This document shows positions 20,168 through 57,867 of a stretch of 64,000 bases of DNA, in pieces. The notes below the pieces were generated by a model. It was not told the DNA's origin. It saw only the letters and a list, made by a program, of their open reading frames with translations, and searched no databases. How positions within the stretch are numbered: position 1 is the stretch's first letter; the number at the start of each line of letters is the position of its first letter. Both the position numbers and the translations under genes were made by a program. The DNA comes from Sinorhizobium meliloti 4H41 (lineage in GTDB: Bacteria > Pseudomonadota > Alphaproteobacteria > Rhizobiales > Rhizobiaceae), in the NCBI RefSeq assembly GCF_000375585.1, contig NZ_AQWP01000002.1, positions 558,001 through 622,000 on the forward strand, given 5' to 3'.

Positions 20168-20327
20168 CAAGGCTTGCCCGTCTATCCTGCGGGCGCCGGC
20201 AATCCCGGCGCTTTGCCTTTGTACCTCATTCATGATAGCGGCGAACCGCCCACAGCGCGCGCATCCGTTCGGACGCGCCGAAGCCACTGTGGCCCTTTTG
20301 AATGGCTGCATGCCGAAGGAAAGCACC

Positions 20328-21203
20328 GTGAGCGAGATACGCCTTTTCGTTACCACTACCGAGAAGCAGGCGGCCGCCGTCCTCGACGTCATGAGCGCAA
20401 TCTTCGAAGAAGACGATTACGCGATCGCGACCATGGAGATCGACGAGAAGCGGGATGTCTGGGAGGCCTCCGTCTACATGATGACGGATGAAGAAGAGAG
20501 CGTGAGATCACGCCTCGCTCAGGCACTCGAAGCCGAATTTTCGCATCTTCCGATCGAGCGCGAAGTGCTGCCGGATGTCGACTGGATCGCCAAGTCGCTG
20601 GAGGGCCTCGCCCCCGTGCGCGCGGGCCGCTTCGTCATCCACGGCTCGCATGATCGCGACAAGGTGAAGCCGGGCGAGATTGCCATCGAGATCGATGCCG
20701 GTCAGGCCTTCGGTACCGGCCATCACGGCACGACCGCCGGCTGCCTCGAAATGCTTGCCTCCGTCGCCCGTTCCCGGCCTCTCCGCAACGCGCTCGACCT
20801 CGGAACGGGAAGCGGCGTGCTGGCGATCGCCGCCTGGAAGCTCCTGCATGTTCCGGTGCTCGCAACCGATATCGATCCGATCGCAACCCGCGTCGCCGCC
20901 GACAATGCCCGTCGCAACGGCGTCGTCAACGGCTTGACATTCGCCACGGCGCCCGGCTTTCACTCGACCACCTTCAGCGCCAACGGCCCCTTCGATCTCA
21001 TCATCGCCAACATTCTGGCGCGCCCGCTGATGAAGATGGCGCCGCAACTTGTGGCCAACCTCGCTCCGGGCGGTTCGGTCATCCTCTCCGGCATTCTCGC
21101 CGAACAGCGCTGGAAGGTGCTCGCAGCCTATAACGGCCAGAACCTCAGACATGCGTGCACCATCTGGCGCAATGGCTGGGTAACCATTCATCTGACCAGG
21201 TAA
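20328..21203 (+). CDS. prmA: Ribosomal protein L11 methyltransferase PrmA
   Basis: 291 residues from GTG at 20328, which has AGGA at a good distance; an in-frame ATG at 20310 is the alternative. The N-terminal substrate-binding domain is followed by the SAM-binding domain with 'FGTGHHGTTAGCLEML', 'ALDLGTGSGVLAIAAWKL' and the NPPY-like 'FDLIIANILARPL'. It trimethylates ribosomal protein L11. It is monocistronic or follows the SCO gene with about 160 bases between. Confidence 0.93.
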   Translation: MSEIRLFVTTTEKQAAAVLDVMSAIFEEDDYAIATMEIDEKRDVWEASVYMMTDEEESVRSRLAQALEAEFSHLPIEREVLPDVDWIAKSLEGLAPVRAGRFVIHGSHDRDKVKPGEIAIEIDAGQAFGTGHHGTTAGCLEMLASVARSRPLRNALDLGTGSGVLAIAAWKLLHVPVLATDIDPIATRVAADNARRNGVVNGLTFATAPGFHSTTFSANGPFDLIIANILARPLMKMAPQLVANLAPGGSVILSGILAEQRWKVLAAYNGQNLRHACTIWRNGWVTIHLTR

Positions 21204-21272
21204 GCCACGCTTGTCGCAGACGCGTCCGGTCGCGGCGTCCCCTTCAGTGTTTCTATGAAACGTTGGAATGCC

Positions 21273-21530
21273 CTAAAGCGCATCCCTGATCGGGAACATG
21301 TCTTCGCCGTAATGATGAAGCCTCGTGTGATGTCGGCGGCATAACCACCGCACCTTCAAAGGCTCGTCGTATTGATCGTGATGGGCATCGACCGCTTCGA
21401 TCCCGCAAACCTCGCACGTCTGCTTTTCCAGCTCGCCTGCCTTCACGGCTCGCTGCACAGCGAGGTGAGCATCATATTTTCCCGGATTGGCACGGCGCCA
21501 ATTGGCTTGACGGGTATCGGTTTTCAGCAT
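21273..21530 (-). CDS. HNH-like zinc-binding small protein
   Basis: 85 residues. The signature 'CEVCGIEAVDAHHDQYDEPL', with 'WLCRRHHTRLH' after it, has the two CxxC/CxxH pairs and central His residues of the compact HNH-like proteins often found in phages. The N-terminal 40 residues are basic ('RQANWRRANPGKYDAH'), consistent with nucleic acid binding. Whether it cuts DNA is uncertain. It stands alone, with no integrase or phage genes nearby. Start ATG 21530; the ribosome-binding site is weak. Confidence 0.7.
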   Translation of the reverse strand: MLKTDTRQANWRRANPGKYDAHLAVQRAVKAGELEKQTCEVCGIEAVDAHHDQYDEPLKVRWLCRRHHTRLHHYGEDMFPIRDAL

Positions 21531-21689
21531 CGCTGCTCTACCTCTGCATGCTCCGTTTGAGAGATATCCTCGCAAGTCGACCGTAAGCGGGCATATCACG
21601 AAGCAAACCGTTCTTCATTTGTTTTCCCGTGGACACCGCCTCTTTCCACAGGAACCTCCGTACCGACCGAAACGGGAGCCGAGAAAACG

Positions 21690-21725
21690 AAAAGGCCGCC
21701 CAGTCCATCATGACGGGCGGCCTTC
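21690..21725 (-). terminator. Strong terminator on the minus strand
   Basis: GGCCGCCC (21694-21701) pairs with GGGCGGCC (21715-21722). On the minus strand the stem is followed by TTTTCGTTTTC. It backs up a second hairpin just upstream (21736-21755). Confidence 0.85.
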
Positions 21726-21727
21726 TC

Positions 21728-21923
21728 GAAACAAAGGCGATGCCGAAGCATCGCCTGCTGACCGGCTTTTGGCCGACCATACCCGCGAGCTTGAGGAGGA
21801 GGAGCGCTCAAGCGGGCTCTACCGTTCCGAAGCTGGCCACCCTGAGGGAGGAGGAGAACAGATGACCAACTATTCTCGGAACTGCAGTCTTTTGAACCGG
21901 CGGACGTTCGTCCGTGTTCGTTG
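21728..21923 (-). ncRNA. Candidate regulatory sRNA with exposed CCUCCUCC loops
   Basis: The minus strand shows a plausible promoter (CTTTCT at 21958-21953, 17-base spacer, TATAAG at 21935-21930) and a 3' hairpin GGCGATGC-UUCG-GCATCGCC (21755-21736) followed by a T-rich TTTGTTT. Two internal hairpins hold anti-Shine-Dalgarno sequence in their loops. One is CUCCUCCUC at about 21804-21796, closed by GCTTGAG/CTCAAGC. The other is CUCCUCCUCCCUC at about 21856-21844, closed by TGGTCA/TGGCCA and GTTCCGA/TCGGAAC. Alphaproteobacterial 'cuckoo'/CcsR-type RNAs have such CCUCCUCCC loops and act on ribosome-binding sites. Transcription from this strand is inferred, not shown. Confidence 0.55.
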
Positions 21924-22103
21924 AGGCGGCTTATAACCTATAATTCCGATAGAGAAAGCCACATTCGGGCATGGGTGCCATGCGCCGCGTGCATATGTAT
22001 TACAAATGAGCAATGCCGCCCGCGCTGCCCGAGGTGCGGGGACGTTCACGTGAATTTCGCCTCCCCGTGCGGGAGCGGATCTTAAGTTGTTATTTTATGG
22101 GGG

Positions 22104-22151
22104 TCGTTACCCCAAAACCGCTGCACACTTTTGGAAGAGATGCATTAACAT
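22104..22151 (+). repeat. Short dispersed rhizobial repeat
   Basis: CCCCAAAACCGCTGCACAC and the following TTTTGG...GATGCATTA match a motif I recognise as common between rhizobial genes. The reverse complement of 11720-11750 shares the central CGCTGCACAC. It lies within 50 bases of the aminopeptidase start. Confidence 0.55.
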
Positions 22152-22196
22152 GCTCGTCTCACCTGCGGTTCTCCGCCAAGCTTACCGGGAAAGTCC

Positions 22197-24032
22197 ATGT
22201 TCCAATCCTTCGAAGTCACCTCCACGCCCCAGTTCGGCAAGGAGAGAACCACCGCCCTGCGTGCCGCCCTCGCAACCCTGGGCGTCGATGGCTTCCTCGT
22301 GCCGCGTGCCGACGAATTTCAAGGGGAGTATGTGCCCCGCAGTTCCGAGCGGCTGTCGTGGCTGACGGGCTTTACCGGTTCGGCCGGTGTAGCGCTCGTG
22401 ACGCAGCGCGAGGCGATCGTCTTCGTCGACGGCCGTTATGTAACCCAGCTCAAGGAGCAGGTGGACGGCAGCGTCTTCACCGGCGGCGATCTCATCGGCG
22501 AACCGCCGCATGTCTGGCTGGAGCGCCATGGACCCAAGGACTTCCGCCTCGGCATCGATCCTTGGCTGCACACCGCGGCGGAAGTTCGCCGGCTCGAAAA
22601 GGCGCTGACGGCGGTCGGCGGCAGTGTCGTCCTCCTCGACCACAATCCGCTCGACCGGCTCTGGACCGACCGTCCCGCAGCGCCGCTCGGCCCTGTGACG
22701 ATCCAGCCGGTCGAGCATGCGGGACAATTGGCAAGAGACAAGATAGCGGAGATCGCGGCGGGCGTGTCAAAGGCGAAGGCCGCGGCCGTCATACTTACCG
22801 ATCCCTCCTCCGTCGCCTGGACCTTCAACATCCGTGGCAGCGACGTGCCGCACACGCCGCACCCGCTGGCACGCGCCATCGTCCATGCGGACGGCAGCGC
22901 CGAGCTTTTCCTCGACAAACGCAAGACCGGCATCGAGCAGGAGGCCTACCTGACGCAGCTCGCCGATATAATGGCGCCTGCTACCTTCGACGATCGGCTC
23001 GCCGCCCTCGCCTCGACCGGCGCAGCCATCATGATCGATCCGGATCTCGCCCCCTTTGCGATCGGCGAGCTGATTCGCAGGAAGGAAGGTTCGGTGGTCG
23101 AGGCGGTCGATCCCGCCCGCCTGCCACGCGCCTGCAAGAATGCAGCCGAGATCGCCGGATCGACCCGGGCGCACCTGCAGGATGGTGCGGCGATGGTCGA
23201 GTTCCTCGCCTGGCTGGACGCGAGGGAGCCCGGCAGCGTCACCGAAATCGGCGCAACCAGGCAATTGGAGGCAATGCGCGCGGCCGTCGGCGAGCGCATG
23301 CAGAACCCGCTGAAGGACGTTTCTTTCGACACGATCGCCGGCGCCGGTTCGCATGCCGCAATCATGCATTACCGGGTCACGAACGAAACCGACCGGCGGA
23401 TCGAGGCGGGTACCATCTTCCTGATCGACTCCGGCGCGCAATACATCAACGGCACGACCGACATCACCCGCACGGTCGCGATCGGCGCGGTGCCGGAAGA
23501 ACAGAAGCGATTCTTCACGCTCGTGCTCAAGGGCATGATCGCAATCAGCACGGCGCGCTTCCCGAAGGGGTCACGCGGCGTCGATCTCGATCCGCTCGCC
23601 CGGATCGCACTGTGGAAGGCGGGCGCCGATTATGCGCATGGGACCGGCCACGGTGTCGGCTCCTATCTCTCGGTCCACGAAGGACCGCAGCGCATTGCCC
23701 GGCTTGCCACGCAGGAATTGCTGCCGGGCATGATCCTGTCCAACGAACCCGGTTACTATCGCCCCGGTGCCTTCGGCATCCGCATCGAGAATCTCGTCGT
23801 CGTCCGCCAGCCGGAGGAGATCGATGGCGGCGACCAGCCGATGCTCGGCTTCGACACGCTGACCTTCTGCCCGATCGATCGCCGGCTCGTCCTTCCCGCC
23901 CTGCTGACCGACGACGAGCTCGACTGGCTGAATGCCTACCACGCGGAAACGCGGGAAAAGCTGATGCCGCTGCTGTCGGACGCGGAGACGAGAGACTGGC
24001 TGGCCAATGCTACGGAAGCAATCGCGCGGTAG
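22197..24032 (+). CDS. Aminopeptidase P family protein (M24 Xaa-Pro aminopeptidase)
   Basis: 611 residues, the long three-domain form with two creatinase-like N-terminal domains and a C-terminal pita-bread domain. The dinuclear metal ligands are visible in order: 'LIDSGAQY' (Asp), 'GTTDITRTV' (Asp), 'HGTGHGVGSYL' (His), 'ILSNEPGYY' (Glu) and 'GIRIENLVVV' (Glu). It removes N-terminal residues before proline in the cytoplasm. The ATG at 22197 follows GGGAAAGTCC. It is monocistronic. The symbol pepP is usually used for the shorter form, so none is given. Confidence 0.93.
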   Translation: MFQSFEVTSTPQFGKERTTALRAALATLGVDGFLVPRADEFQGEYVPRSSERLSWLTGFTGSAGVALVTQREAIVFVDGRYVTQLKEQVDGSVFTGGDLIGEPPHVWLERHGPKDFRLGIDPWLHTAAEVRRLEKALTAVGGSVVLLDHNPLDRLWTDRPAAPLGPVTIQPVEHAGQLARDKIAEIAAGVSKAKAAAVILTDPSSVAWTFNIRGSDVPHTPHPLARAIVHADGSAELFLDKRKTGIEQEAYLTQLADIMAPATFDDRLAALASTGAAIMIDPDLAPFAIGELIRRKEGSVVEAVDPARLPRACKNAAEIAGSTRAHLQDGAAMVEFLAWLDAREPGSVTEIGATRQLEAMRAAVGERMQNPLKDVSFDTIAGAGSHAAIMHYRVTNETDRRIEAGTIFLIDSGAQYINGTTDITRTVAIGAVPEEQKRFFTLVLKGMIAISTARFPKGSRGVDLDPLARIALWKAGADYAHGTGHGVGSYLSVHEGPQRIARLATQELLPGMILSNEPGYYRPGAFGIRIENLVVVRQPEEIDGGDQPMLGFDTLTFCPIDRRLVLPALLTDDELDWLNAYHAETREKLMPLLSDAETRDWLANATEAIAR

Positions 24033-57258: not shown

Positions 57259-57467
57259 AGAAGCTCGTAACCAGCCTTGCGGATGATCAAATATTGATAG
57301 GTTGTTAAGTTTAACAAAGGGTTACGATCAAAACCCTAATGCCTTGGAATCGCGCGCAAAAGCGAGCCGCGTCCGTGAGGTGCGGCGAGCCTCGCAGGCG
57401 TGATTCGCTGAGTCAGGGAATTGAGGAGACGTGCTTTGCCGCAGTGGCGAAAGCTGCAAAGAAAAAA

Positions 57468-57867
57468 GCCAGTTGGCCTGTAAGCCGGGTTCTGTATGGC
57501 TCCGCCTCCGGAGAGACGAAACGTGGCAGCCATTCATCTGGGGCTGCGCTTGCGCGCAGCCTCGTGCAACCCACCCGGACGACGCGCCTGGAAACCGGCT
57601 GGGCGCTTGCGCGCCCGTGTCGTCCCTATTCGGTCTTGCTCCCGGTGGGGTTTGCCGTGCCGTCCATGTCGCCATGTCCGCGGTGGGCTCTTACCCCACC
57701 CTTTCACCCTTACTCCGCAAGCGGAGCGGTCTGCTTTCTGTGGCACTTTCCCTGGGGTCGCCCCCGCCGGACGTTATCCGGCACCGTGTTTCCGTGGAGC
57801 CCGGACTTTCCTCGCCCCGCGGCCTTTCGGCACTTGCGAGGCGCGGCTGCCCGGCCAACTGGCAGAG
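57468..57867 (-). ncRNA. rnpB: RNase P RNA (type A)
   Basis: The 5' end GCCAGTTGGCC (57863-57853 on the minus strand) is the exact complement of the 3' end GGCCAACTGGC (57478-57468), forming helix P1. Universal sequences are present: GAGGAAAGTCCGGGCTCC near the 5' end (about 57812-57795), GGGTAAGAGCCCACC in the middle and CAGAACCCGGCTTACAGGCC at the 3' end. A run of six T follows at 57467-57462 as terminator. It is the catalytic RNA that matures tRNA 5' ends. Open frames across it are artefacts. Confidence 0.97.

Follow-up and report, generated by a model that had tools for sequence, protein, structure and literature searches.

The window, a 64,000-nt stretch of the Sinorhizobium meliloti 4H41 genome, was found by sequence reading and folding to hold a small RNA (sRNA) gene on the minus strand, running from about position 21922 to about 21685. 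By its position, strand, and length, the RNA is taken to be the orthologue of S. meliloti Sm26/SmelC531, and the transcript is therefore not new but an already catalogued conserved sRNA. As far as the searched literature goes, its anti-Shine-Dalgarno (anti-SD) design, its probable control by LsrB, and the existence of related loci with and without a small open reading frame (ORF) are new, and an earlier listing among surveys of the cuckoo family is possible. The explanation that fits best as a whole, and that is considered very probable, is that this Sm26/SmelC531 orthologue would be activated by LsrB, would block the ribosome sites of mRNAs, and would have been left alone after the loss of an ORF.

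The transcript and its identity with Sm26/SmelC531

The start of the transcript (21685..21922, minus strand) was placed at 21922 from the -10 element, and 238 nt from this position lead to 21685, directly behind the second of two terminators. The RNA opens with a short 5′ hairpin, CGGAC-GAAC-GUCCG (21901..21914), which is predicted by folding; 2 of 23 genus loci have a double-sided change in one of its pairs. It is followed by hairpin 1 (21819..21887), supported by both folding and covariation, with the anti-SD loop CUCCUCCUCCC at 21856-21846, and by hairpin 2 (21781..21817), with the anti-SD loop CUCCUCCUCCUC at 21804-21793 and a stem whose sequence is itself conserved. A third hairpin (21759..21778) is dispensable, as it is missing from 5/23 genus loci. 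Terminator 1 (21735..21756) has a UUCG-type, GCUUCGGC-capped loop and a TTTGTTT tail, and the stronger terminator 2 (~21690..21724), with a TTTT tail, lies partly beyond the range 21728..21923 covered by the sequence-only reading.

Folding of a 195-nt stretch gave -83.4 kcal/mol (z = -4.05), and a 251-nt stretch gave z = -5.44; none of 200 shuffles was equally good in either case. Both anti-SD loops are unpaired in the minimum free energy (MFE) structure and in the consensus fold; the sequence of loop 2 is CCUCCUCCUC, and the exact motif CCUCCUCCC is present in loop 1 only. The sequence-only reading had proposed a minus-strand anti-SD sRNA with two exposed loops, a UUCG-tetraloop terminator, and a second terminator behind it, all of which were recovered here. 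Its length of about 195 nt was an underestimate, and the full transcript is probably about 238 nt long, reaching to ~21685, as in S. meliloti.

SmelC531, which is the same RNA as Sm26, was mapped to 2321050-2321287 on the minus strand, with a length of 238 nt, in the available part of the report by Schluter et al. 2010 (PMC2873474). The consulted portion of Valverde et al. 2008 (PMC2573895) placed Sm26 in the gap between SMc04453 and SMc01885 and described a Northern doublet of ~135 and ~200 nt, with microarray signals on the same strand, so that the minus-strand transcript proposed for the window has a reported counterpart in S. meliloti. The rnpB gene of strain 1021 lies at 2356793-2357134 on the minus strand (PMC7143759, in the part available), 35,506 bp from SmelC531 (2356793 minus 2321287). 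In the window, the RNase P RNA (bacterial class A, rnpB; 57465-57862, minus), a landmark from a whole-window Rfam scan, lies 35,543 bp away (57465 minus 21922), with both RNAs again on the minus strand. Strand, length, and distance to rnpB are alike, and over 98% of the query the window locus shares 94.6% identity with that of S. meliloti AK57.

The positive microarray probe (2321429-2321478) maps 142-191 nt upstream of the SmelC531 5′ end, and the predicted unit was 392 nt long (PMC2573895, as excerpted); a longer minus-strand transcript is therefore possible. The available portions of the descriptions of Sm26/SmelC531 (PMC2573895, PMC2873474) make no mention of anti-SD loops, an LsrB box, or small-ORF relatives, and SmelC531 does not appear among the conserved families in the accessible text of PMC3927594 or in the table of PMC7143759 as available. 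Two other known RNAs were rejected as the identity of the window RNA: GspR, which is flanked by SMc03844/SMc03845, and PmaR, which occurs in Agrobacterium only.

Conservation, covariation, and gene neighbourhood

A DNA search of 40 genomes located the RNA in 23 of 24 genus genomes, the exception being a genome that is 70% complete; a 35-nt match (L024) was excluded from all alignments. Identity to the loci of Sinorhizobium sp. M103, C101, and K101 was 99.3%. Within the genus, the loops are nearly invariant, although loop 2 of a single locus (L020) is 3 nt shorter; in hairpin 1, a C-G pair is replaced by U-A in 8/23 loci. CTC units in loop 2 (21793-21804) differ in number, with one less in L020 and one more in S. 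meliloti AK57. At the level of the family, a covariance model of the two-hairpin core (R1) matched 73 of 394 genomes and 19 of 109 genera (E up to 0.01), and a further model (R2) matched 81 of 394 genomes and 23 of 109 genera (E up to 0.001), with a single match each. Among the matches listed are loci of Rhizobium, Neorhizobium, Shinella, Pararhizobium, Ciceribacter, Agrobacterium larrymoorei, Mycoplana, Gellertiella, and others. An order-wide search matched 15/397 genomes, four of them outside the family with E values of 0.0015-0.007. Seven order-wide loci (L124-L130) were rejected as orthologues because neither prmA nor the aminopeptidase gene was found within ~1.5 kb on each side (L125 is cut by a contig end).

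Covariation was evaluated in an alignment (A4) of 61 of 79 loci, 55 of them distinct, in which 94.8% of the cells were paired, compared with 67.3% in shuffles, with the reservation that the alignment was fitted to the covariance model, which favours the structure. Compensatory changes in the stems, a check named beforehand, were abundant: double-sided changes were found in 26/33 pairs, and none of 500 shuffles reached the observed value for any of five measures. When the partners were shifted by 1-3 columns, pairing fell to 28-43%. In helices 1-3, which form hairpin 1, all 23 of 23 pairs were double-changed across the 61 family loci. Hairpin 2 was paired in 99.6% of its cells; three of its ten pairs were double-changed, three changed on one side only, and four never vary. 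The anti-SD core of both loops is nearly invariant. In one locus (L095, genome G099), a terminator hairpin 3′ of the core has a CCTCCTCCC loop, which constitutes a third anti-SD motif.

Synteny was checked in 72 of the 73 R1-matched genomes (G403 was left out), giving 79 loci, some of which are repeat fetches. A divergent gene of the aminopeptidase P family (22197..24032, plus strand) adjoins the RNA in 79/79 loci from the 72 genomes, and a prmA-like gene (20310..21203, plus strand; its name is that of the sequence-only reading, and its start codon was checked) was present in 75/79 loci, the other four being without it within the stretch fetched. Among the R2 matches, three of 81 (G209, G330, and G063) have neither gene within ~2.5 kb, and four g100 genomes have prmA but not the aminopeptidase gene within this distance. 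An HNH-like ORF, named by eye, lies between prmA and the RNA (21273-21599, minus strand), and among the loci searched, it was found only in the window's own genome, Sinorhizobium sp. M103, USDA 6670, and S. meliloti AK57, where the match covers residues 22-108 at 100%. In AK57, an annotated Phd/YefM-type antitoxin gene is also located between prmA and the RNA.

The LsrB-type box and the small ORF of the relatives

The sequence-only reading had described a promoter-like pair, of which the -10 element TTATAA (21931..21936, minus strand) proved good; the -35 element is poor, and a sigma70 consensus scan of 21000-23000 returned no promoter. A sigma54 promoter, judged by eye, was discarded, since the window does not retain its -12 part. 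Upstream lies an LsrB-type box, TGCA-N6-GCAT-GGCACCCAT (21971..21994, minus strand; -72 to -49 from the putative start), with its TGCA-N6-GCAT core at 21993-21980, corresponding to -71 to -58. The LsrB motif published for NfeR1 is TGCA-N6-GCAT at -72 to -60 (PMC10746234, in the part available), and AbcR1 is described as being under LsrB control in the accessible text of PMC8844928. The box, placed 57-58 bp 5′ of the -10 element, fits the LsrB sites of NfeR1 and AbcR1.

A composite pattern of the box, built from the window site and one ar14 (NfeR1-type) copy, was matched exactly at three places in the window's own genome, namely the window locus, the ar14 copy used, and a site before a peroxiredoxin-like gene. 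The last site (G000:C2:939425-939448; L295) is ~150 nt 5′ of this ORF, which was named by eye, and its placement would fit a redox regulator. One mismatch added two sites, one before ORFs without a name and the other 5′ of the tandem ar15/AbcR pair, which was not among the sequences from which the pattern was made. Two mismatches gave seven sites, one of them before a DUF1127 gene adjoining ar14; another 2-mismatch copy (G000:C1:972150; L299) is followed by a 50-codon ORF. Two ar14 copies and two DUF1127 genes were found together at G000:C9:67500-71500 (L261), with the box 5′ of the second ar14 copy and of one DUF1127 gene. With up to three mismatches, the pattern had 93 places versus 46 for the reversed pattern, and therefore only the top matches mean much.

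The box was found 5′ of 103 of 120 loci (118 stretches among the matches listed, AK57, and the window), versus 0/1849 control windows from the same loci, with the proviso that the loci are related and the counts are not independent. For 88 of the 103 boxes, a -10-like hexamer begins 57 or 58 nt after the first base of the box. The 17 loci without the box as written (11 with the ORF described below and 6 without it) include most carriers of the Neorhizobium/Agrobacterium ORF form, and three of them (L191, L200, and L229) have less than 420 nt of upstream DNA. VtlR is presumably the counterpart of LsrB. In Brucella, it was reported to activate AbcR2 and three DUF1127 genes (PMC12595884, in the part available). 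Such a link between a regulator of this type, anti-SD RNAs, and DUF1127 genes fits the present locus.

Among the matches listed, an ORF of 46-57 codons is located between the promoter and the hairpins in Rhizobium, Neorhizobium, Agrobacterium, and others, and among the loci listed, it is absent from this place in Sinorhizobium, Shinella, and Pararhizobium. Among the matches listed, box and loop are 138-199 nt apart in 55 loci that lack the ORF and 297-314 nt apart in 48 that have it. The ORF carries AAGGA-type ribosome sites, and its stop is 17-46 nt 5′ of the CTCCTCCCT of loop 1, placing the end of the ORF within the 5′ arm of hairpin 1 or immediately ahead of it. In the Rhizobium form, 5286 differences fall on the third codon position, versus 2232 and 1790 on the others (all pairs of 30 sequences), and 3775 differences are synonymous versus 2410 non-synonymous; coding-type variation was likewise found in the two other forms. 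Profile comparison with seven DUF1127 proteins (hhalign) gave 72% for the Neorhizobium/Ciceribacter/Agrobacterium form and 28% for all forms pooled, and Pfam and NCBIfam searches with the relatives' ORF gave no DUF1127 match (PF06568 was not reached). The DUF1127 likeness is thus weak and does not extend to all forms. By the same type of comparison, the R. leguminosarum-type form is related to the Neorhizobium/Agrobacterium form (96.7%), and the R. tropici-type form is related to the R. leguminosarum-type (97.6%) and weakly (44%) to the Neorhizobium/Agrobacterium form.

On a prmA tree of those loci with enough prmA (105 of 120, among the matches listed), the ORF state requires five changes, one of which is an artefact of a cut locus, L200, scored as having none solely because its upstream DNA is cut. 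Since both sides of the tree have related ORFs at this place, including R. alarense beside Shinella, the ORF is read as ancestral and its absence in Sinorhizobium would be a loss; the prmA tree, which does not resolve the root, is also compatible with a gain.

Alternative readings and the proposed mechanism

The sequence-only reading had called the RNA "cuckoo"-type, and it might be a true ar14/cuckoo member, a drifted copy of an NfeR1-like RNA. Like ar14/NfeR1/cuckoo RNAs, it has several hairpins with CCUCCUCCC-type loops, variable stems, and an LsrB-type box at the same distance; a weak ar14 match aligns both of its loops to ar14 loops, and two ar14 copies of the same genome adjoin DUF1127 genes. 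However, the ar14/cuckoo covariance model (RF02344), a search that the sequence-only reading had suggested, gave 15.3 bits against a cut-off of 58.8, whereas four other ar14 copies in this genome score 87-109 bits. In the reverse direction, model R1 gave 14-20 bits at 5/7 own-genome ar14 loci and no match at 2/7. Rfam at the gathering cut-off returned RNase P only for the whole window, and at E up to 10 nothing over threshold at the RNA locus. The accessible part of PMC3927594 defines ar14/cuckoo by three (or four) hairpins each with CCUCCUCCC; the window RNA has only two anti-SD hairpins with different loop sizes, a conserved hairpin-2 stem, and fixed synteny, and instead of the multiple copies of ar14, R2 has one match in each of 81 genomes. 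Family membership is accordingly judged unlikely, and what stands of the cuckoo label is the probable mode of action and, in part, the gene arrangement of the relatives, with a small ORF upstream.

Two further known systems share features with the locus. The relatives' loci resemble CcsR1-4/CcaF1 of Rhodobacter sphaeroides, whose DUF1127-CcsR arrangement is called CIN1 (PMC10253847, in the part available), in that a small ORF, partly DUF1127-like, directly precedes anti-SD hairpins behind one promoter. Unlike CIN1-type loci, the window genus has no ORF and the ORF of the relatives does not reach Pfam DUF1127, and unlike CcsR1-4, the window RNA has two hairpins in one transcript rather than four separate RNAs. 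The ar15/AbcR1-2 RNAs (RF02345) share anti-SD motifs, the same box upstream in this genome, and LsrB control, which is described for AbcR1 in the available portion of PMC8844928; however, they have another structure, form a tandem pair elsewhere in the genome, and gave no match in the window.

The position of the relatives' ORF, which ends just before or inside the hairpin 1 5′ arm, would also suit an element of a 3′ UTR or leader that acts in cis instead of an RNA that acts in trans, but this appears quite improbable, since no such ORF was found in the window genus, the downstream HNH-like gene was found, among the loci searched, only in the own genome and close relatives, terminators close the unit, and the loops are kept while the stems change. 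A small gene on the plus strand, with an ATG at 21862 behind GGGAGGAGGAG, is hardly credible despite its strong Shine-Dalgarno sequence and 20-codon ORF: the ATG is changed to ACG in 2/23 genus loci, the length ranges from 5 to 50 codons (20 in 9/23), and its Shine-Dalgarno sequence is the complement of an anti-SD loop. This mini-ORF was rejected as a conserved gene, though local use of it is conceivable. As for the box, it is a near-palindrome (GCATGG-N3-CCATGC) between two divergent genes, and LysR boxes are degenerate, so that another regulator might bind it or it might serve the divergent aminopeptidase gene. That assignment is doubtful in view of the 57-58 nt spacing to the RNA -10 element in most boxes and of the LsrB site of NfeR1, which is at the same distance from its start (PMC10746234, as excerpted).

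In the preferred reading, a sigma70-type promoter with a weak -35 element would transcribe the ~238 nt on the minus strand, probably with activation by LsrB, a LysR regulator that would bind at -72 to -49. The two stable hairpins would hold open loops complementary to ribosome sites, and by pairing with the GGAGG-type Shine-Dalgarno sequences of mRNAs these loops may prevent ribosome binding. Loops of this kind match too many mRNA leaders for particular targets to stand out. The analogy is to NfeR1 and AbcR1/2, for which ribosome-site pairing and a block of translation were reported in the available parts of PMC10746234 and PMC8844928. In the relatives, the same promoter would read the 46-57 codon ORF first and then the same hairpins, and the window RNA would most likely be the remnant after loss of the ORF.

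These considerations lead to a proposal, to which about an even chance is given, that the sRNA gene was born by loss of the protein-coding part of a longer unit. The ancestral LsrB-driven transcript would have encoded a small DUF1127-like protein followed by 3′ anti-SD hairpins; deletion of the ORF, probably on more than one occasion, in the lineages of Sinorhizobium, Shinella, and Pararhizobium would then have spared the promoter box, start region, and hairpins and left a stand-alone ribosome-masking sRNA. The strictly kept stem of hairpin 2 would, in the same proposal, be a protein-binding or target-specific element.

With this analysis, Sm26/SmelC531 is no longer just a catalogue entry but a defined RNA found across the family, for which a structure, a predicted regulator, and a history open to testing are now available. 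Comparing loci that have the small ORF with loci that lack it would show directly how an RNA located behind a small gene turns into an sRNA in its own right, and whether the small protein acts on the RNA. If LsrB drives Sm26, three different anti-SD RNAs (AbcR1, NfeR1, and Sm26) would be under one redox-linked regulator that is important for nodulation.
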